DNA of 64,000 bases from Vulcanimicrobiota bacterium (GTDB lineage: Bacteria; Vulcanimicrobiota; Vulcanimicrobiia; Vulcanimicrobiales; Vulcanimicrobiaceae): assembly GCA_027459645.1 (NCBI GenBank), contig DAIDHQ010000028.1, positions 186,001 through 250,000 of the forward strand, in the 5' to 3' direction. Within the stretch, counting starts at the first letter, position 1, and each line of letters starts with the position of its first letter. A program made the position numbers and the translations under genes. Below, piece by piece: positions 19,286 to 37,019 of this stretch. Under the pieces are notes generated by a model. That model saw only the letters and a program-made list of their open reading frames with translations, was not told the origin of the DNA and did not search any database.

Positions 19286-21409
19286 ATGGAACGCTCCTCC
19301 CTCGAAGCGCCGCTCAAGGAATATGGCGAGCAGGCACGCCTCGTCGTGTATATCGCGGCTGCGCCCGGTGCCGGCAAAACACGGCGCCTGCTGACCGACG
19401 CGCGCCGCTTTCAGGCAGCAGGCAAGCGCGTATACATCGGCTGGATCGAGCCGAAAGGCCGGCCGGATCTCGAACGTCTCGCGGAGGACATTCCACGCGT
19501 TCCCGCGCGCAAGGTGCAAATAGGCGCCGAAACCTTCGACGAATTCGATCTCGATGCCGCAATCGCGCTCAAGCCCGAGATTCTCATCCTCGACGAACTC
19601 GCCCACGCAAATCTCGAAGGTTCGGCCAACCCTCACCGCTGGCAGGATGCGCTTGCCCTGCGTCAGGCCGGAATCACGACGCTCGGCGCATTCAACATCG
19701 CGCACCTCGAAAGCGCGTCGCCGACGGCGGAAGCGCTGCTGGGACATCCGATCCGCGCGCTCGTGCCGATGTCGTTTTTGAAAACGGCCGACGAAGCGAT
19801 CGCCATCGATGCCTCGCCCGAATTGCTCCTGCGACGCCTTGCCGACGGAAAAATCGTGGCGAGCGACGACATCCCGCGCGCGAGTTACGGCGCGTTTAAG
19901 GAATCGACGCTCACCATGCTGCGCGAGCTGTTGCTGCGAACGATCGACGCGCTCACGATTCCAAGCGTTGCCCCTGCGGCGGCCTCGGCGGCGGTAGCCA
20001 TCGTTCCCGACGGCGTGGACGCGCGCATGTTTCTCGAGCGCATCAATCCGCTCGCAAGCGCTTTCGATCTCTCGCTCGAGATCTTGCCGGCGCCGGGCGC
20101 CGATCCGATCGCGATCGAGCGGGAGGCACGCGCCCACAATGCCGACGTTCGACCCGCGCAGGAGCCCGCGACGATCGACGTTCCCGCTCTGCGCGCGTCG
20201 ATGATCGCACTCGCGAACGGAAAGCTCGCCGCAAAGCTCGTCAACGCGCCCGTCGTGCGCGACATCGCAATCGTCGACGCCTCGCAATCGTTTCTGGAAC
20301 AGTCGACGTTCACCACGCCGCTCTCGGGAACGCTGGGCGATCGCATGCGCGTGGGGTACGGCCGGCTGACGGTCTTTCTCGGCGCCGCGGCGGGCGCGGG
20401 AAAGACCTACGCGATGCTCGATCGCGGACAACAGTTGCTTGCCGAGGGCGCAGACGCGATCATCGGGCTGGTCGAGACGCATCAACGTCCCGAAACCGAA
20501 GCGATGATCGGACCGCTGCCGATCCTTGCACGCAAGACCATCGTTCACGACGGCATCACCTTTACCGAGATGGATCGCGACGCGATTCTCGCGCGAAAGC
20601 CGCAGGTCGTGCTCGTCGACGAACTCGCGCACACCAATGCGCCCGGCTCGCTCGCGCCCAAGCGCTTCATGGACGTGCTCGCATTTCTGCGCGCGGGCAT
20701 CAACGTTCTCACCACGCTCAACGTGCAGCATTTGGAGGCGTTGAGCGACGCCGTCTATCGCACGACCGGAACGATCGTGCGCGAGACGCTTCCCGACGGC
20801 ATCTTGCCGCTCGCGGATGAAGTGATCCTCATCGACGTAACGCCCGAAACGCTGCGCGAGCGGCTGCGCGCGGGAAAAATTTACCCGAAGGAGCGCATCG
20901 AAGCCGCGCTCTCGAATTTCTTCCGCACCGAAACGCTCGCGTCGCTGCGCGAGCTTGCCATTCGCGAGGCGCTGCGCTCCGAGACGCGCGAACGCATCGC
21001 CAGTCCCTTCTCCCGGCTGCTGCTTAGCGTGGTCGCCCGTGAAGAGGATATGTTGCTGGTGCGAAAGGCCAGCCGCCTAGCGTTGCGCCTCGAAGTCGAT
21101 TTTGCGATCGCGCATATCGCGGAACGCAACGATAAGGTCGATCCAAAAGCCCTCACGCAATTCCAGCGCGTCGCCCAAGCGATCAACGCCGACTGGATCG
21201 ACGAGCGCGCCGACGACGCCGCGAAACGTTTGCTTCAGGTAGCGCGAGCGCGCGCAGAAACCGTCGTAGCGGTAGGCGGCACGCACCGCGCTCCGCGGTG
21301 GCCGGCGCGTAACGCCTTCGCCCGGCGCCTGCTCGACGCCGGCGCGCGAGAACTTCTCGTGCTGGCGCGGCCCGCACCGGATGCGCCAACCTCTAACGAT
21401 ATCGACTGA
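19286..21409 (+). CDS. tandem KdpD N-terminal (P-loop) domains plus Usp-like domain, no histidine kinase
   Basis: The 707-residue protein contains two KdpD sensor domains. The first has Walker A AAAPGAGKT (residues 24-32) and LDELAHANLEGS (about 102-113). The second has GAAAGAGKT (366-374), VDELAHTNAPGS (444-455) and TTLNVQHLEALSD. A Usp-like domain follows the second unit. The DUF4118 membrane region, DHp and HATPase domains of real KdpD are absent, and no kdpFABC or kdpE is present. In KdpD this part reads potassium, ATP or cyclic-di-AMP; here it may regulate the upstream TrkA pair directly. The first copy is more divergent (FNIAHLE replaces LNVQHLE). Soluble; start ATG at 19286. Confidence 0.85.
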   Translation: MERSSLEAPLKEYGEQARLVVYIAAAPGAGKTRRLLTDARRFQAAGKRVYIGWIEPKGRPDLERLAEDIPRVPARKVQIGAETFDEFDLDAAIALKPEILILDELAHANLEGSANPHRWQDALALRQAGITTLGAFNIAHLESASPTAEALLGHPIRALVPMSFLKTADEAIAIDASPELLLRRLADGKIVASDDIPRASYGAFKESTLTMLRELLLRTIDALTIPSVAPAAASAAVAIVPDGVDARMFLERINPLASAFDLSLEILPAPGADPIAIEREARAHNADVRPAQEPATIDVPALRASMIALANGKLAAKLVNAPVVRDIAIVDASQSFLEQSTFTTPLSGTLGDRMRVGYGRLTVFLGAAAGAGKTYAMLDRGQQLLAEGADAIIGLVETHQRPETEAMIGPLPILARKTIVHDGITFTEMDRDAILARKPQVVLVDELAHTNAPGSLAPKRFMDVLAFLRAGINVLTTLNVQHLEALSDAVYRTTGTIVRETLPDGILPLADEVILIDVTPETLRERLRAGKIYPKERIEAALSNFFRTETLASLRELAIREALRSETRERIASPFSRLLLSVVAREEDMLLVRKASRLALRLEVDFAIAHIAERNDKVDPKALTQFQRVAQAINADWIDERADDAAKRLLQVARARAETVVAVGGTHRAPRWPARNAFARRLLDAGARELLVLARPAPDAPTSNDID

Positions 21410-24805: not shown

Positions 24806-25705
24806 TTAGGTCCAGCCGAGCAATTCCCTTGCCTTGCGCTCGACGTCCGGCGGTTGCACCCACTCCGTCTGAGGCTCGCGCTTGAACCAGGAGCGCTGCC
24901 GGCGAGCATAACGGCGCGTCGCGCGGGCAAGCGACGACCGCAGTTCGTCTGCGGTCGACCAACCCGAGAGAAACGCCAGCGCTTGAGGATATCCGACGGC
25001 CGTTGCCGCCACCGCAGCGGGACCGATGCGCTCCGCTTCTTCCAGCAAGCCGGATGCAAGCATCGTTGCGGTTCGGCGATCGATGCGACGGTCGTTCTCT
25101 TCGAGCGGCACGTCCAGAAAGAGTTTGGCGAAGGCGATCCCGCGGCTGCGAAGGTTGCGCCCCTCGCTTCCTCCGCGTTGCGGTGCGAGCGCGATTTCGA
25201 GCGCGCGCAACACGCGGTAGGTATCGTGCGGATCCAGGGTCGCGGCGCGGCGCGCGTCTCGGCGCACGAGCCAATCGTAGAGAAACTCGGGCGGATGCAA
25301 GCGCGCTTCGGCGGCGAGCCGTTCGCGCAGCGCTTCGTCGTACTCGGCCGCAAGGGTTACGCCGCCGGTCAGAGCACGAACGTAAAAGCCGGTTCCACCC
25401 ACGACGATCGCGCGCTTTCCGCGTGCGTGGATCGCGTCGATGCACGCCACGGCATCGGCAGAAAAGCGCGCGGCGGAATAGCGTTCGTGCGGATCCAGAA
25501 ATCCGATCAAATGGTGGGGTACCGCCGCGAGTTGCTCGGCCGAGGGGGCGGCAGTACCGATCGGCATGCCGCGATAGATCTGCCGTGAGTCGGCTCCAAC
25601 GATTTCGGCGTCGAACGCCTGCGCGAGGGCGATCGCGAGATCGGTCTTTCCCGAAGCGGTCGGTCCGGCAAGCACGAGAACGCCCGGCGTCGCGCGGCGC
25701 TCCAT
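24806..25705 (-). CDS. miaA: tRNA dimethylallyltransferase
   Basis: The 299-residue enzyme transfers a dimethylallyl group to N6 of A37 in tRNAs reading UNN codons; MiaB (31639-33048) then thiomethylates it. Motifs: P-loop [24 protein letters not shown], and [12 protein letters not shown]. The ATG at 25705 overlaps the mutL stop (TGATG). Both enzymes of the ms2i6A37 pathway are therefore in the same minus-strand run. Confidence 0.97.
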
Positions 25706-27390
25706 CAAATTCGCTTGAACATCTTTTCGATGTCGGCCGGGGCGAACCGCACCATGGTCGGGCGCCCGTGCGGGCAGTGCATCGGATTCGCGCAGACCGC
25801 CAGGCGCTCGACGAGCGTCGTCATCTCGTCGAACTCCAGCCGCTCTCCGGCGACCGTGACGGAATGACACGCAAGCGAGGCCCAAATGCGTTCGCGGACG
25901 TCGCGCTGTTTCGGTTCGTCGCCCAGATCGTCGAGGAAGCCTTGCAAATCGAAGGGGCGCGCGCCGTAACCCGCAGGCGTCGCGGTAATGCGATAGGTTC
26001 GCTCGCCGAAGGCTTCGATCTCGAGGCCGCCTTCGCGCAGGACGTGCATCGTACGCTCCAACGCCTCGCTCTTAGCGGCATCGAGTTCGACGACGATCGG
26101 CACGAGCAGCGGTTCGCTCGGCGCTCCCGCGTTTGCGCGCGCCAAGATCAGTTCATACGCGATGCGTTCGTGTGCGGCGTGCTGGTCGAGCAGCAGCAAA
26201 CCTTCGCCGTCGCTCGCGACGATGAAGGTGCGATGCAGTTGCGAAAGCACGCGCATGCGGCGCACCGGCACGTCGTCCGGATCCGCCACGATCCCGCTCT
26301 CGAAGAGCGATTGAACGTGCGGAAGTGACGGGTCGATGCTCGACGGCGCCAACGAAACGTTCGCAACCGACGTCGCGTCGCGGAAGCGCTCGGAGGCGTG
26401 ATTGCGCAACGTTGCGGCAATCGCGTGCCGGACCGCGTCAAAAACTTGCGTGCCGTAACGTAAGCGCACGTCGCTCTTGGTCGGATGCACGTTCGGATCG
26501 ACGTGCTCCGGCGGAATGTCGAGGAAGAGCACGCCGTACGGCTGCCGCCCCACCATCGCGAAGGTCGAATATCCGGCAGTCCACGCGCCGGCGAGCTGCG
26601 TGCTGCGCAGCAACCGTCCGTTGACGAAGAGCACTTGCATTCGCCGGTCGCCCCTGTCGTTGCCGGGGGCGCTGATGAATCCGCGTAAGCTGCCGTCGAG
26701 GGTCCGCGCCGCGGCATCATCGAGGGGTATCAACGTGGCCGCCGCCTCGCGTCCAAAGACCATCGCAAGGCGCTCCCGCACGTCGCCCGACGGCATCACC
26801 CACACGTCTTTGCCGTCGTGGCGGAGCGCAAAGGTGACGTGCGGATAGGCGAGCGCGAATGTCGAGAGCCACGACGATATGCGCGAAAACTCGGCGCTCG
26901 GGCTCTTCAAATACTCGCGGCGGACGGGCACGTTTTCGAAGAGTCCACGCACGATCACGTGCGTTCCCGGCGGGGATGCGACCGGCTCGACGTCGCCTAC
27001 TTCTTCCGCATGCGCGTACACGCGCGAACCGATGCCGTCGCTTGCGACGCGCGAGCGCAGTTCGACGCGCGCGATTGCGGCGATCGATGCCAAACCTTCG
27101 CCGCGAAAACCGAGCGTCGCAACGCTCTCGAGATCGCTTGCTTCCGTGAGTTTGCTCGTCGCGTGCCGCAGGACGGCTACCGGTAACTCCGGCGGCGCGA
27201 TACCGCCTCCGTCGTCGATCACTTCGATAAGATCGAGACCGCCGCGTTCGACGTTCACGCTAACGCGCGACGCGCCGGCATCGACGGCGTTCTCGACGAG
27301 TTCCTTGACGACGGACTGGGGGCGCTCGATCACCTCGCCGGCGGCGATTTGCCCCACGGTAACGGGATCGAGAACGTGAATGGTGGACAT
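25705..27390 (-). CDS. mutL: DNA mismatch repair protein MutL, endonuclease-type
   Basis: The 561-residue protein has the GHKL ATPase N-terminus (QIAAGEVIERP, ELVENAVDAGA, DDGGGI, GFRGEGLASIA). Its C-terminal domain has metal-site motifs DQHAAHERIAYE (near residue 400), ACHSVTV and CPHGRP (near 538). These mark the nicking form of MutL found in bacteria without MutH. It works with MutS, encoded about 1.7 kb upstream. The two redox genes at 27443-28923 separate the partners. Confidence 0.97.
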   Translation of the reverse strand: MSTIHVLDPVTVGQIAAGEVIERPQSVVKELVENAVDAGASRVSVNVERGGLDLIEVIDDGGGIAPPELPVAVLRHATSKLTEASDLESVATLGFRGEGLASIAAIARVELRSRVASDGIGSRVYAHAEEVGDVEPVASPPGTHVIVRGLFENVPVRREYLKSPSAEFSRISSWLSTFALAYPHVTFALRHDGKDVWVMPSGDVRERLAMVFGREAAATLIPLDDAAARTLDGSLRGFISAPGNDRGDRRMQVLFVNGRLLRSTQLAGAWTAGYSTFAMVGRQPYGVLFLDIPPEHVDPNVHPTKSDVRLRYGTQVFDAVRHAIAATLRNHASERFRDATSVANVSLAPSSIDPSLPHVQSLFESGIVADPDDVPVRRMRVLSQLHRTFIVASDGEGLLLLDQHAAHERIAYELILARANAGAPSEPLLVPIVVELDAAKSEALERTMHVLREGGLEIEAFGERTYRITATPAGYGARPFDLQGFLDDLGDEPKQRDVRERIWASLACHSVTVAGERLEFDEMTTLVERLAVCANPMHCPHGRPTMVRFAPADIEKMFKRI

Positions 27391-27442: not shown

Positions 27443-28570
27443 TTAATCGTGTACTTTGGAAACGATCGGGACCGTCCACCAGAGGTAGTAGCGCCAGGCC
27501 GGCGTTGCGTTCTGCGTCATGTAGACCTCCGTGTAGCCGCGCAGATACTTCGCAAACCGATAGGCGAGGTCGATGTTTCCGCTTTGGAACGAGTTGCCGA
27601 GACCGCCCGCCTGCCATTCCTTGCGTGCGCTCAGGAAGAGCCGCTGCTGGAAGAACGTTTGGTAAAGTTCGGCGGTGAAACCGTTGCCGTTAGCCGCCGG
27701 CAGTTGGTTTCCGGTATTCGGATCGACGCCCGGATTCTGGTCGTTCCCGCGGATATAGAGCAGGAAGAGTCCCGGTACCGCTCCGGTAGGATCGCGTTCC
27801 GCATATCCGCCCCACGAACTGTACTGGTCGATGCCGGTGGAAACCGGAACCGAACCGCGCGAGCCGACGTAGCCGATTTCGAACGGCTTGACCGGATTTG
27901 CGTAGGCAATTTTATAGACGAACGTCTTGTCGGAGTTGCTGAAGTTGCTCGCACCCGTCCAACCGGTGTTGTCGTACATCCAACCGGCTTCGGCGTCGAG
28001 ATTGCCGCGAATGTAATTCAGCTTTGCACCCCAACGGTTTGCATCGAGCTGATAGACGTGCTCGCCGACCGTCATTTCCGGCGTAGCAAATGGCTGGATA
28101 TCGGTCCACATGCTATAGACCGAAGGTCCGGGCGATTCGATTTTACCGATGAAGATGTGGCCGTCGCGGTGAAGGACGTTGTTGTAGGCCAACCACAGCG
28201 TGTCCAGATCGCCTGCGCCGTTGTTGGACCAAATCCACTGCTGCGCATGATAGGTAAAGTCGTTGCCGATGGCTCCCACGGCATGAACCGCGAGATTGCC
28301 GAACTGCGGCTTCATCGTCGAACCCCTGGAGTCATAGTTGACCTGCTCGCCGATCCAGACGGGAAAGGCCCGACGCAGAACGTGCGGATCGAGCGACGCG
28401 TATCCCGTGCGCTGAACGTACCGTCCGTAGGCGTTGAGTCCCGGAACCTGCGTATGACAGGTGTTGCAATCGATGCCGTAGGCCTTGGCGAACGGAGGCA
28501 TCGCATTTGCGCGCGACGCCGTGACGATGCCGAGGACCGCGAAGGCGGCGACCGCCAAAAGCCGCTTCAT
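27443..28570 (-). CDS. monohaem outer-membrane porin-cytochrome, Cyc2-like
   Basis: The 375-residue protein has a signal peptide (to about residue 23). Immediately after it comes a single haem site: PPFAKAYGIDCNTCH (C35, C38, H39), with PGLNAYGRYVQRTGY. The rest is rich in alternating aromatic/polar strands separated by Gly/Asn turns, as in an outer-membrane barrel. This haem-then-barrel order is that of Cyc2, the iron-oxidising porin-cytochrome, and of related uncharacterised cytochromes. It would pass electrons across the outer membrane. Its ATG overlaps the cupredoxin stop (ATGA). It is somewhat shorter than Cyc2, and the N-terminal motif is shared by other families, so iron oxidation is not proven. 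Confidence 0.65.
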   Translation of the reverse strand: MKRLLAVAAFAVLGIVTASRANAMPPFAKAYGIDCNTCHTQVPGLNAYGRYVQRTGYASLDPHVLRRAFPVWIGEQVNYDSRGSTMKPQFGNLAVHAVGAIGNDFTYHAQQWIWSNNGAGDLDTLWLAYNNVLHRDGHIFIGKIESPGPSVYSMWTDIQPFATPEMTVGEHVYQLDANRWGAKLNYIRGNLDAEAGWMYDNTGWTGASNFSNSDKTFVYKIAYANPVKPFEIGYVGSRGSVPVSTGIDQYSSWGGYAERDPTGAVPGLFLLYIRGNDQNPGVDPNTGNQLPAANGNGFTAELYQTFFQQRLFLSARKEWQAGGLGNSFQSGNIDLAYRFAKYLRGYTEVYMTQNATPAWRYYLWWTVPIVSKVHD

Positions 28571-28923
28571 TTAACGACCTTGACCGTCAAGGTCATGTTC
28601 GGATGGCCCGCACCGCAAACGATGGAGCAATGCACGACGTAGGTACCGGCCTTCTTCGGGGTCACGGTAATCGTCGAGAATTTGCCAGGCGTTATCATCG
28701 TTTGAGAAATGCCGAGCTCATCGGATTTTACACCATGCACGCCTTCGCTCGACGTGAAGCGAAGCTGTTGCGCTTCGCCGACGTGCAGCGCGATCGTGCT
28801 CGGCGTGAATTTCCAGTTGCTGGCGACGATATCCATCGCCGGATGTGCGGATGCCTTCGGTGCCACGAGGACGAGAACTCCGGCGGCAACGAACGCACAC
28901 ATGAGAGCGTAGAGGGATTTCAT
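28567..28923 (-). CDS. periplasmic cupredoxin with CuA-type ligand pattern
   Basis: The 118-residue protein has a signal peptide ending KASA and one cupredoxin domain. The candidate ligands H63, C99, C103, H107 and M110 (CSIVCGAGHPNM) match the binuclear CuA site of cytochrome oxidase subunit II and nitrous-oxide reductase; the usual Glu between the cysteines is Ile. It should be a soluble periplasmic electron carrier. Translational coupling to the haem-porin suggests that it takes electrons from, or gives them to, that protein. An AAGGTAGG ribosome site precedes the ATG at 28923. Confidence 0.85.
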   Translation of the reverse strand: MKSLYALMCAFVAAGVLVLVAPKASAHPAMDIVASNWKFTPSTIALHVGEAQQLRFTSSEGVHGVKSDELGISQTMITPGKFSTITVTPKKAGTYVVHCSIVCGAGHPNMTLTVKVVK

Positions 28924-29056: not shown

Positions 29057-31540
29057 CTAATCGCGCAGAAACGTCAATTGCAGTTCGGTCGGAACGGGGC
29101 GAGAGATGCGTCGCCGCAAGGGCACTTGCTCCTCGACGTCGGCTTTGCCGGAGAGAGCGTCGGCAATCTCGCGCGCACGTTCGATGACCGCCGATGGAAG
29201 GCCGGCCATCTTCGCGACCTCGATGCCGAACGAACGCGACGAACTTCCCGGCTGCACCTGATGCGAAAAGACGGGAGCGCCGCCGCGGGCGGTGTTTTCG
29301 ACTGCGGTGATGTGATAATTGGCGACGAGCCGCCAGTGTTCGGCGAGCGAACACAGTTCGTGAAAATGGGTCGCAAAGAGCGCCATCGGCGCCTGGCCTT
29401 CGAGTCCGAGTAAGAACTCGCAGATCGCCTGCGCGATCGAGAGGCCGTCGATCGTGCCGGTTCCACGTCCGACTTCGTCGATGAGCAAGAGCGAGCGATG
29501 GGTCGAACGGCGCAGGATGTTTGCCGCCTCGGCCATCTCCATGTAGAAGGTCGACTGCCCTGAGGCCAGATCGTCTCCGGCCCCAATGCGCGTGAAGATG
29601 CGATCGACGACGCCGAGCCGCATGGACGCCGCCGGCACGAACGAGCCCAACTGCGCCATGATGACAAGCAGCCCCGTTTGACGCAGGTAGGTCGATTTGC
29701 CGCCCATGTTCGGGCCGGTGAGCAGAAGGAACCGATGCTCGTGCTCTTCCAAACGCACGTCGTTCGGGACGAAGTTCGTACGCAGGATCGCTTCCATCAC
29801 CGGGTGGCGGCCGTCGGTAACCGCAAGCGTCGTCGAATCGACGAACTCGGGCCGCACGTATCCACGCTCGGCCGCGCACTGCGCGAGGCCGCACAGCACG
29901 TCGATCGACGCAATGGCGTCGGCAGCGGCGAGCAGCGACTCGGCTTGCGATGCGACGCGTTCGAGCAGTTCTTCGTAGAGCCGCGTCTCGAGGCGCTCCT
30001 GGCGCGATTGCGCGGTCGAGATGGCGAGCTCCAGCTCTTTGAGTTCCGGCGTGATAAACCGCTCGCCGTTGGTCAGCGTCTGTTTGCGCACGTAATCGGC
30101 CGGCACGCTCGAGACAAACGATTTCGATACTTCGATGGCGTAGCCGAAGGCGCTCGCGTACTTGATCTTCAGCGACTTGATGCCGGTTCGTTGACGCTCG
30201 CGCTCTTCCAATTCCGAAAGCTTCGAGCGAGCGTCGGTGCGGAGCAGCACGCATTCGGCCAGCTCCTCGTTCGCTTCGGGCCGAATCACGCCGCCGTCGC
30301 CGAGGGCATTGGGCGGTTCGTCGACGAGCGTAGCGCACAGATCGGCGAGCAGCGGTTCGAAATCGCCGATTCGCCGTGCGTACGATTCGAGCGGCGCCGG
30401 AATCACGCTTCGCAGCGGCGGCAGCATCTCGAGGGTTCGCCGCAAAGACGCGAGATCGCGCGGGAGCGCGCGCCGAAAGCGCGCCTTCTGAGCGATGCGC
30501 TCCAAATCGAAGCATCCTTTGAGCAAATCGCGGATAGCCTCGCGCCGCGCGTGTTCTTGCAGCAGCGTCTCTACCGCGTCGGCCCGTTCCTCAATCGCGC
30601 CGCGCTCGACGAGCGGCGCATTGATCCAGCGCGCCAGCATGCGCGAGCCCATCGACGTCGCGCATGCGTCCAGCGTTGCGAGCAGCGTCGCGCGCGGATT
30701 CTGGCCTTGAGCGCGCGTCAACTCCAAGTTCTTGCGCGTCGAGTGATCGAGCATCAGGAAGTGCGAGCGCTTGTAGAATTCCGGCGCCTGAAGGCTCTCG
30801 CTCCCCGAAGAGATGCCCGTGCGTTTGATGAACGCACCGAGCGCATCGAGCGCGCGGTGGATCGCGAGCGATTCGTCGAGCGAAAAACCGTCGAGGGCGG
30901 CGCGGTCGCGGGATTCAACCAAACCGAGCGAAGGCGCGGCGAGGCGCGCTCCGAGCGGTTCGATGGCCGTCGCGAGCGTCGCGCGAAAATCGGGCGGCAG
31001 GTCCGCGACGATCTCCGAAGGCCCTATGCGTCCCAACTCCGCCAGCAATTCGTCGTACGCGGACTCGCCTGCAACCGACGTACCGGCACAATATCCGGTC
31101 GAAACGTCCGCGTATACGACGGCGAACGCGTCGTTCACGAGCGCGACGGCGCAGAGGTAATTGTTCTGCTTGCCGTCGAGCAGTTGATCTTCGATCAGCG
31201 TGCCCGGCGTCACGATCCGCACGACGTCGCGTCGAACGAGTTTATTGGGAACCGGAACTTCCAATTGCTCGGCGAGCGCGATGATGAAGCGCTGCTGCAC
31301 GAGTTTGTGCAGGTATTGCGAGAGGGCGTGGTGCGGCACGCCGGCCATTGCCACGCGCCGGCCCCCGCCGGCTTCCTTGCTGGTTAGCGCGATCTGCAGC
31401 GCGCGGGCGATCGTCTCCGCATCTTCGCCGTACGCCTCGTAGAAATCGCCCACGCGGCTGAGCAAAATCGCTTCGGGGTGTTTCGTCTTCATCCCGAAGT
31501 ATTGCTCGAGCATCGGTGAGTACTTCACGGCCTCGCTCAT
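29057..31540 (-). CDS. mutS: DNA mismatch repair protein MutS
   Basis: The 827-residue protein opens with the mismatch-reading domain (LLSRVGDFYEAYGEDA, with the Phe-x-Glu wedge as DFYEAYG). It continues through connector, lever and clamp domains, and ends with an ABC-type ATPase: Walker A GPNMGGKSTYLRQ (near residue 610), ASGQSTFYMEM, LLIDEVGRGT and FATHFHEL. It detects mispairs and recruits MutL. The C-terminal tail after the ATPase is short. It lies 98 bases after miaB. Confidence 0.97.
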   Translation of the reverse strand: MSEAVKYSPMLEQYFGMKTKHPEAILLSRVGDFYEAYGEDAETIARALQIALTSKEAGGGRRVAMAGVPHHALSQYLHKLVQQRFIIALAEQLEVPVPNKLVRRDVVRIVTPGTLIEDQLLDGKQNNYLCAVALVNDAFAVVYADVSTGYCAGTSVAGESAYDELLAELGRIGPSEIVADLPPDFRATLATAIEPLGARLAAPSLGLVESRDRAALDGFSLDESLAIHRALDALGAFIKRTGISSGSESLQAPEFYKRSHFLMLDHSTRKNLELTRAQGQNPRATLLATLDACATSMGSRMLARWINAPLVERGAIEERADAVETLLQEHARREAIRDLLKGCFDLERIAQKARFRRALPRDLASLRRTLEMLPPLRSVIPAPLESYARRIGDFEPLLADLCATLVDEPPNALGDGGVIRPEANEELAECVLLRTDARSKLSELEERERQRTGIKSLKIKYASAFGYAIEVSKSFVSSVPADYVRKQTLTNGERFITPELKELELAISTAQSRQERLETRLYEELLERVASQAESLLAAADAIASIDVLCGLAQCAAERGYVRPEFVDSTTLAVTDGRHPVMEAILRTNFVPNDVRLEEHEHRFLLLTGPNMGGKSTYLRQTGLLVIMAQLGSFVPAASMRLGVVDRIFTRIGAGDDLASGQSTFYMEMAEAANILRRSTHRSLLLIDEVGRGTGTIDGLSIAQAICEFLLGLEGQAPMALFATHFHELCSLAEHWRLVANYHITAVENTARGGAPVFSHQVQPGSSSRSFGIEVAKMAGLPSAVIERAREIADALSGKADVEEQVPLRRRISRPVPTELQLTFLRD

Positions 31541-35084: not shown

Positions 35085-37019
35085 ATGGGCGACTTTCGCA
35101 TCGCGGACAATTTGAATGCGAATGCGGCCGAACTCCAGATCGGCCTCACCCAAACGCGCCTTGCGAACGCCACAAGCCAGCTCGCATCGGGATTGCGCAT
35201 TCAAAGCGCCGCCGACGATCCGTCGGGCCTCGCGATCTCGCAACAACTCCTCGCGCGTTCCCGGGCGCTCGCAACCGGGTCGAAGAACGTTGCGCTCGCG
35301 CGCGATGCGGCAGCCGTTGCCGACGGGGCGCTGGCAACCATCACGTCGGTCCTACAGCGAATCCGATCCCTTGCCGTGGAAGCCTCTACCTCGGTCACGA
35401 GCGACGCCGACCGCCAAAACATCCAAATCGAGATCGATGAACTCACGCACGAAATCGACCGCATCTCGCAGAACACGACCTACAACGGGCAGCAATTGCT
35501 GGATGGCAGCCACTCCGGGTTCGTGCCGGCGCAGAGCGCGCAGCTTCAAATAACGGCAAACTCGCCGCTCTCCACCGTTTCAGCGACCGCGGGGACCGCG
35601 CAGAACAACCTCGTGCAGAGCGCAACGTTTTTGCTCGGCGCGCAACAACCGACCATCTGGTTCTCGCTGAAGCAAAACGTCACCGCGTCGGCCAATCCAC
35701 AAACCGTCCAGGTAAGCGACGCGCAATACATCGCACCGAACACGATTTTCGCACTCAACGGCGGCTTGGTCTACGTACAGTCCGTAGACGGCAACGCTGG
35801 TACGATTACCGGCGTGTTCACGGCAAGCGGCGCGAGTGGAGACATTGCGAACCCTACCGTGAACGGAAACGCGACAGCCGCAATTTCGGCGGGACAGCAG
35901 CTCGTGACGCTGACCGGCAGCCCGCAGCCGCTCTACGCCGGAGAAGCGCTGCAAGTCGACTACGGAACGTTCGCGACCAACGAAGTCGTCGTCGTACAAA
36001 AGGTGGTCAGCCCGAACAGTTTCGTCGCCGACTTCTCGAAGGCGCACGCCTCGGGCGTCAACTTCTTCAGCGAGAACGGCACCTTCGTGTCGCCCGGTAC
36101 GGTCGGCTCGTTCACCTTCAGCTTCGGTGGCACTCCCACCGACTCGCCCCAGATAGGCAGCATTGCCTACGTCATGGAGACGAGTGCCTCCGGATTTCCC
36201 CCACCGAACGGATCGCAAACGCAGGTCGTCGCTACGGGCACCGTCATCGACGGCAGCGTATCGAGCGAGACGATTTACTTTCCGACGCCGGTTCCAAACT
36301 ATTTCGGCGGCTCGTGGGAGGTGATGACGAATCTCGGCTACGGCTCGACCCCGCTCGTCAACACCGACGACGGCACTATCAAACTGCAAGTCGTAAATAC
36401 CGGCACGTCGATCGCCGTGCAAGAATCGTTCTATGATACGGCGACGCATGCAACGGAGGTCTCGCCGATCTTGCTGGCGCCGAACGAACAATCCGTGCTC
36501 TTCGACGGCGTCGTCGTCAACCTCGGAAACTTCACTACCAACGACGTCGGCCAAACGTCGTACATCAAGGTGCAGCAGGGCACGAGCGCGATAACGGCGG
36601 CCGGCAATACGGCCTTCAGCGTGCAGTCGGGCGGCGAAGAGGGCGACATCCTGCAACTCGGCATTCCGTCGGTCTCCTCCGAATCGCTGCGCGTCTCGAC
36701 GCTCAACGTGCTGGCGACGGCCGGCGGCGACCCGACGCTCGCCGCGGAAGATACGATCGGTCAAGTCGATTTTGCGCTCCAGCGGCTGCTGGCAATTCGT
36801 GCAAACCTCGGCGCGTTCGAAGTGACGCTCGGGACCGAGGGCTCCAACGACGACCAGGCATCGATGCAGACGCAGGCGGCGGCCTCGACGATAGCCGATG
36901 CAAACATCCCGGCGGAAACTGCCGCCTATACGCTGGCCCAGACCGATGCCCAAGTCGGCATGATGGTTCTGTCGCAGGCAAATCTGATGCCCAGTGAGGT
37001 TCTCCGCCTCTTCCGTTAA
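35085..37019 (+). CDS. flagellin with large central domain
   Basis: The 644-residue protein keeps both flagellin ends. N-terminal D0/D1: LTQTRLANATSQLASGLRI, SAADDPSGLAISQQL, NTTYNGQQLLDG. C-terminal D1/D0: VDFALQRLLAIRANLGA and a final LSQANLMPSEVLRLFR. About 370 residues of beta-rich, Ser/Thr/Asn-rich sequence fill the middle and would form the outer filament surface. It has no signal peptide and would use the flagellar export route. It starts seven bases after plsY, with no sigma-28 promoter seen. No other flagellar gene is nearby. Confidence 0.92.
   Translation: MGDFRIADNLNANAAELQIGLTQTRLANATSQLASGLRIQSAADDPSGLAISQQLLARSRALATGSKNVALARDAAAVADGALATITSVLQRIRSLAVEASTSVTSDADRQNIQIEIDELTHEIDRISQNTTYNGQQLLDGSHSGFVPAQSAQLQITANSPLSTVSATAGTAQNNLVQSATFLLGAQQPTIWFSLKQNVTASANPQTVQVSDAQYIAPNTIFALNGGLVYVQSVDGNAGTITGVFTASGASGDIANPTVNGNATAAISAGQQLVTLTGSPQPLYAGEALQVDYGTFATNEVVVVQKVVSPNSFVADFSKAHASGVNFFSENGTFVSPGTVGSFTFSFGGTPTDSPQIGSIAYVMETSASGFPPPNGSQTQVVATGTVIDGSVSSETIYFPTPVPNYFGGSWEVMTNLGYGSTPLVNTDDGTIKLQVVNTGTSIAVQESFYDTATHATEVSPILLAPNEQSVLFDGVVVNLGNFTTNDVGQTSYIKVQQGTSAITAAGNTAFSVQSGGEEGDILQLGIPSVSSESLRVSTLNVLATAGGDPTLAAEDTIGQVDFALQRLLAIRANLGAFEVTLGTEGSNDDQASMQTQAAASTIADANIPAETAAYTLAQTDAQVGMMVLSQANLMPSEVLRLFR

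Follow-up and report, generated by a model that had tools for sequence, protein, structure and literature searches.

A Cyc2-like haem-porin and its CuA-type cupredoxin partner in Candidatus Eremiobacterota

Introduction

Cyc2, the fused cytochrome-porin of iron oxidisers, has its nearest folds in OprO and OprP, and electron flow through the characterised Cyc2 proteins is inward; outside the characterised clusters the function is uncertain (Keffer et al., PMC8406198). The published screen for Cyc2 includes the motif AXPXFAR[Q/K][T/Y] upstream of the haem site (Keffer et al. 2021, PMC8406198). In Acidithiobacillus the gene order of the rus operon is cyc2-cyc1-cup-coxBACD-rus (PMC10654088). Cupredoxins linked with Cyc2 in the literature searched are mononuclear, namely rusticyanin and AcoP (PMC4059628, PMC10654088), the ligands of the latter being H85 and C159-x6-H166-x4-M171 (PMC4059628). 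In Candidatus Eremiobacterota, a Cyc2-like protein has been reported, by BLAST against Cyc2, from one MAG (MAG 15, acid mine drainage; PMC8357290); besides this gene report, no iron-oxidation physiology of the phylum was found in the literature searched.

Here we analyze a window of 64,000 nucleotides, which is part of a 3.14 Mb assembly from Candidatus Eremiobacterota (WPS-2, Vulcanimicrobiota). A previous sequence-only reading had pointed to two coupled secreted proteins, a Cyc2-like haem-porin and a CuA-type cupredoxin, and had proposed that they form a minimal trans-outer-membrane electron-uptake module. Our analysis shows that the pair is real and conserved, that it varies the fused cytochrome-porin plan by having CuA as the usual partner, and that this variant is undescribed in the literature searched. 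It suggests a compact wire, predicted to lead electrons from outside the cell into respiration.

The gene pair and its host

Both reading frames proposed earlier were found, and both lie on the minus strand, which the sequence-only reading had left unstated. The cupredoxin gene is the upstream one of the pair and the haem-porin gene the downstream one, and the ATGA by which they had been said to be coupled is indeed common to both. The features of the locus are as follows.

27443-28570, minus strand: haem-porin gene, 375 aa, with a Sec-type N-terminus (residues 1-23, by inspection), a haem domain and a 16-strand barrel
28567-28923, minus strand: CuA-type cupredoxin gene, single domain, 118 aa, with a Sec-type N-terminus by inspection and without a membrane anchor
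28567-28570, minus strand: ATGA, overlap of the cupredoxin stop with the haem-porin start (sequence and open reading frames)
28454-28468, minus strand: haem-binding motif CNTCH, residues 35-39, within AMPPFAKAYGIDCNTCHTQVPGLNAYGR (sequence)
27467-28360, minus strand: predicted 16-stranded outer-membrane barrel, residues 71-368 (AlphaFold model; OprP/OprO and general porin folds)
28058-28060, minus strand: codon of the invariant His171, candidate second haem or metal ligand (conserved in 51/51)
28594-28629, minus strand: CuA ligand loop C99-x3-C103-x3-H107-x2-M110 (conserved in 47/47; residue-by-residue alignment with the 6pty CuA domain)
28735-28737, minus strand: codon of the cupredoxin His63, CuA ligand
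29057-31540, minus strand: mutS, upstream neighbour (context only)
25705-27390, minus strand: mutL, downstream neighbour (context only)

Sec-type signal sequences recognized by inspection agree with the earlier view that both proteins are secreted. A scan for a sigma-70-like site and a terminator at the pair found neither, the scan being uninformative at this base composition. Elsewhere in the window, the plus strand encodes a protein of 707 aa in which the KdpD sensor domain occurs twice in tandem (Pfam PF02702, two stretches; 19286-21409) and a flagellin of 644 aa, whose N- and C-terminal flagellin domains are separated by a long middle part (35085-37019).

The host genome contains an Omp85 gene and a cytochrome c assembly gene, and cultivated Vulcanimicrobium has a typical Gram-negative envelope including an outer membrane (PMC9758169). 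RuBisCO has no match in the host genome, and thus lithoautotrophy via RuBisCO is unlikely.

The haem-porin

As had been read from the sequence, the haem protein contains exactly one CxxCH, the CNTCH at residues 35-39. Residues C35, C38, H39, P43 and L45 are invariant in all 51 aligned members of the family, as is H171, which, judging from its conservation, may serve as a second ligand, of the haem or of a metal.

The chain described earlier as barrel-like is predicted by AlphaFold to form 16 strands in residues 71-368, while a short helical N-terminal domain surrounds the haem site (mean pLDDT 84.4, pTM 0.82; the input included 51 family sequences). The best structural match is OprP (2o4v; VIA Z 22.9, rmsd 2.8, 275 residues in the second-look alignment), followed by OprO (4rjw; VIA Z 22.8), but further porins score within one Z unit of these two, and so the protein can be ranked as a porin of the OprP/OprO-like kind and no finer. 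PDB sequence searches with the single sequence and with the family profile returned no solved relative, and Pfam and NCBIfam gave nothing credible; the plasmid-borne Cyc2-like proteins considered below likewise have no match in Pfam/NCBIfam.

Homologues are present in 52 of 60 related genomes (E<=1e-5), far beyond chance. The genome-collection scan, which used only two peptide patterns, yielded 66 family loci, whose titles are all Candidatus Eremiobacterota or unclassified bacterial MAGs, and no relatives outside Eremiobacterota. Hosts of the family include palsa, bog, fen, soil and Antarctic MAGs.

Two other haem-porin families were observed in Eremiobacterota: family II (L168-L176) is of the PxFA[HQ][RQ]Y type, and family III (L177-L185), often with a C-terminal cytochrome c, is of the FANGQG type. 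The host genome (G000) itself encodes a second haem-porin of 575 aa with a C-terminal cytochrome c domain (L061:9577-11304, contig C6) and a third one of 558 aa (L062:9035-10711, contig C42), in which a second CxxCH lies in the C-terminal cytochrome c-like part. The second haem-porin gene overlaps by 4 bases with the gene of a 477-aa multicopper oxidase (L061:11301-12734), and these two possibly form another, outward-facing redox unit.

Relation to Cyc2

The haem-porin family was compared with six plasmid-borne Cyc2-like proteins, from Methylocystis, Paraburkholderia, Caballeronia, Ideonella, Acidithiobacillus ferrooxidans and Polymorphobacter; the comparison rests on these six as references in place of characterised Cyc2. 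The profiles match (hhalign 96.7%, E 4.5e-10) in a region that comprises the haem domain and part of the barrel, with identical spacing at the haem site. Moreover, several features that characterise Cyc2 are present in the window protein: a single N-terminal CxxCH in a secreted protein (the secretion signal being recognized by inspection only), PXL after the haem site (P43 and L45, in 51/51), and a C-terminal 16-strand OprO/OprP-like porin in a chain of 375 aa, the lower limit for Cyc2 being 365 aa.

The motif AXPXFAR[Q/K][T/Y] upstream of the haem site is absent. Here the family has AMPxFA[QKE]AY, the window protein reading AMPPFAKAY, and none of the 51 members has the motif arginine. Among the references, those from Methylocystis, Paraburkholderia and Caballeronia show the published motif as AXPXFARQT, and the one from Ideonella reads AIPLFNRQT, while in those from Acidithiobacillus ferrooxidans and Polymorphobacter alanine replaces the arginine.

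In the maximum-likelihood tree the haem-porin family (family I) is one clade (support 100/99), families II and III and the Cyc2-like set also form one clade each, and a long branch (2.07) leads to the Cyc2-like set. Hence the description of the protein as a Cyc2-like haem-porin stands as far as homology and the common plan are concerned; with respect to its distance from outer-membrane cytochromes the outcome is mixed, the family constituting its own Eremiobacterota clade behind a long branch and lacking the strict motif. Given the homology and shared plan on one side and the missing arginine on the other, we call it Cyc2-like, and not Cyc2 by the published screen. Searches demanding the published motif would miss this family.

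The cupredoxin

CuA is known from oxidases and N2O reductase, where it is a fixed site, and CuA centres are usually high-potential. The copper ligands named by the sequence-only reading, H63 and C99-x3-C103-x3-H107-x2-M110, are those of the cupredoxin, and all five residues are invariant in 47 of 47 relatives. Both Pfam Cupredoxin_1 and COX2 score above the cut-off, while NCBIfam CoxB reaches 38.3 bits against a cut-off of 147.7, covering the CuA part only. The family-profile search ranks CuA domains of ba3 oxidases first among solved relatives (6pty, 2.6e-15; 2cua, 3.6e-14), and the alignment with 6pty places the cupredoxin ligands on the CuA ligands.

The structural model (pLDDT 88) agrees: CuA domains match at Z 13-14 (VIA Z 13.7 for 2cua) and Foldseek E about 1e-8, and those of ba3 oxidases are among the best solved relatives in Foldseek. 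In fold, CyoA, a Bacillus cupredoxin and nitrosocyanin come almost as close, and therefore the CuA assignment rests on the ligand set, which upholds the CuA type proposed earlier. By its sequence the protein is a soluble, secreted, CuA-type cupredoxin with a putative binuclear copper centre.

Two other identities were rejected. Nitrosocyanin or plastocyanin does not fit, since the ligand set is that of CuA in spite of the near nitrosocyanin fold (Z 13.1), and oxidase subunit II does not fit either, because the 118-aa chain has just a signal-like segment at its N-terminus and no membrane anchor. The host genome also encodes a free CuA-like cupredoxin of 121 aa (L063:9442-9807, contig C39 of G000), beside a 360-aa protein with a match to the di-haem oxidoreductase/peroxidase family (L063:9876-10958).

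Conserved adjacency and fusions

Conservation of the pair in relatives, on which the earlier reading depended, was assessed in 64 family loci, which come from species-level genomes. A cupredoxin gene adjoins the haem-porin gene on the same strand in 51 of them, with the identical 4-base overlap in 33 of these 51; a tri-haem cytochrome c adjoins it in 11/64, and one or the other in 59/64. Some of the loci belong to close relatives, so that these counts are not independent events.

Three proteins are natural haem-porin-CuA fusions, in which CuA is a C-terminal extension (L116, and L118 and L119, both copies in bin6A), and five haem-porins of the same family have a C-terminal cytochrome c domain instead (L108, L109, L153, L155, L157). 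The porin C-terminus faces the periplasm, and hence the CuA and cytochrome c plug-ins are both on the periplasmic side. All plasmid Cyc2-like genes examined have a c-type cytochrome gene adjoining or nearby.

Adjacency and fusion indicate partnership, not the direction of electrons. The suggestion that the pairing may be new holds, as no CuA paired with Cyc2 or with a haem-porin was found in the literature searched, in which few subscription journals were covered.

Oxidases and other neighbours

In 18 of the 64 loci the haem-porin gene has a COX1 gene at a distance of no more than about 6.5 kb, and in relatives a 155-residue subunit II is encoded beside this COX1. From its sequence similarity to 1ehk (E about 5e-118), COX1 is assigned, together with this subunit II, to a ba3-type oxidase. 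The host genome has three COX1 genes, none adjoining the pair; the one on the contig of the pair is only distantly similar to the ba3 set, no COX1 match in this genome is clearly of the ba3 type, and there is no ba3 orthologue beside the pair. The window locus also lacks the rus-type arrangement of cyc1, coxBACD and rus in one operon.

Genes for two-component regulators, universal stress proteins, phosphoketolase and acetate kinase are found repeatedly near the family loci. Secreted proteins of about 155-160 aa, alike by eye, are encoded near the pair or the oxidase in several relatives (L071:8128-8595, L075:19007-19486, L076:2413-2883); the L071 copy has no Pfam or NCBIfam match. A further protein, of about 160 aa, is repeatedly encoded close to oxidase-linked loci (cluster C02, L042:6667-7149 and others); it has no match in these databases either.

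Proposed electron route and its alternatives

We consider it probable that the pair is a Cyc2-like conduit across the outer membrane, in which electrons reach an oxidase by way of a CuA carrier. The haem-porin would be located in the outer membrane, and its one c-type haem would sit where the 16-strand barrel opens to the periplasm. An extracellular reductant would pass one electron to the haem, from which the soluble periplasmic CuA cupredoxin would accept it directly and deliver it to an inner-membrane haem-copper oxidase, likely ba3-type in many relatives; the acceptor in the host genome is probably one of its three other COX1-type oxidases. As a terminal oxidase and probably further carriers would be needed, the module cannot be called minimal, as it was in the sequence-only reading.

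The conduit is supported by the 16-strand model with an N-terminal haem domain, nearest to OprP/OprO as in Cyc2, by the homology to plasmid-borne Cyc2-like proteins, each with a c-type cytochrome gene near it, and by the ba3 CuA domains being the best solved relatives of the cupredoxin. The adjacency (51/64 and 59/64), the CuA and cytochrome c fusions, the ba3-type COX1 near 18/64 loci, and the Omp85 and cytochrome c assembly protein of the host point the same way. The absence of a clearly ba3 COX1 from the host genome and from the vicinity of the pair, of the strict Cyc2 arginine from all 51 members, and of a RuBisCO match count against it. A broader version, in which a free or fused periplasmic CuA takes electrons straight from the haem-porin throughout Eremiobacterota, and CuA and cytochrome c are interchangeable plug-ins of the uptake system, seems to us evenly balanced.

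Among the candidate donors, Fe(II) ranks first by analogy with Cyc2, with roughly even chances. The same conduit could tentatively be assigned another donor, such as Mn(II), humic quinones, phenolics, reduced copper or an electrode-like mineral, which we hold to be possible but less probable. The palsa, bog and fen MAGs among the hosts, the uncertain function outside the characterised Cyc2 clusters (Keffer et al., PMC8406198) and the multicopper oxidase adjoining the host-genome paralogue are consistent with such a donor, but no donor-specific gene is consistently found beside the pair.

A role of the cupredoxin in copper handling or oxidase assembly, as a supplier of copper to CuA, is unlikely; the porin would then be a channel for copper or small molecules with a structural haem. 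The linkage to the ba3 oxidase, whose subunit II needs CuA, and the ligand set common to the cupredoxin and subunit II would fit, but the cupredoxin is linked to the haem-porin in 51/64 loci versus 18/64 for the oxidase, fusions join it to the haem-porin, and in its absence the neighbouring or fused partner is usually cytochrome c, that is, a redox protein and not a copper chaperone.

Quite unlikely as well is an outward conduit, through which a cell short of oxygen would get rid of electrons to acceptors outside. The surroundings of many loci, with universal stress proteins, two-component regulators, phosphoketolase and acetate kinase, could suit oxygen limitation, but the oxidase linkage and the usual high potential of CuA favour inward flow, and characterised Cyc2 proteins run inwards (PMC8406198).

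If the inward conduit to CuA is correct, a little-cultured phylum has its own porin-cytochrome route for extracellular electron uptake. Moreover, the soluble CuA carrier and the natural fusions would then provide small proteins for probing trans-outer-membrane transfer by one haem, which is an open point for Cyc2.

The mutS-mutL setting

The neighbours of the pair in the window are mutS, mutL, miaB, miaA and hfq-like genes. The position noted earlier, between mutS and mutL on the same strand, is correct, but it reflects a lineage-local insertion: in 21 of the 40 relatives where both genes could be placed, mutS directly adjoins mutL (<=150 bp) and the pair is not between them. A haem-porin between mutS and mutL occurs in the window genome, in its same-family relative G034 and in G001; the last has a tri-haem cytochrome c in place of the cupredoxin. 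Thus, this position says little on the function of the pair. A DNA-repair or oxidative-damage-sensing role, suggested by the same-strand position in the window genome, G034 and further loci, is strongly disfavoured and was rejected, given these 21 relatives, the location of most family loci elsewhere and the secreted appearance of both proteins.

Comparison with known systems

The haem-porin resembles Cyc2 in being secreted, in having one N-terminal CxxCH with PXL after the haem and a length within about 375-550 aa, and in its 16-strand barrel, nearest to OprP/OprO; it differs in the family motif, AMPxFA[QKE]AY instead of AXPXFAR[Q/K][T/Y]. The partner of the family is CuA, unlike the c-type cytochrome found near the six Cyc2-like references. 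The MAG 15 protein (PMC8357290) comes from the same phylum as the host, and no cupredoxin is mentioned in that paper; it may belong to family I or to families II/III, the likeness being one of phylum and Cyc2 resemblance only.

The cupredoxin shares the fold and the H/C/C/H/M ligand set with the CuA domain of ba3 oxidase subunit II (2cua, 1ehk), but it is a soluble protein of 118 aa with a Sec-type N-terminus and not part of an oxidase. As in the rus operon, an outer-membrane haem-porin, a periplasmic copper protein and a haem-copper oxidase are linked in the genome. In contrast to that operon, with its mononuclear rusticyanin and AcoP, the ligands here are those of CuA, a single copper-protein gene is directly coupled or fused to the haem-porin, and the oxidase in relatives of the window pair appears to be of the ba3 type.
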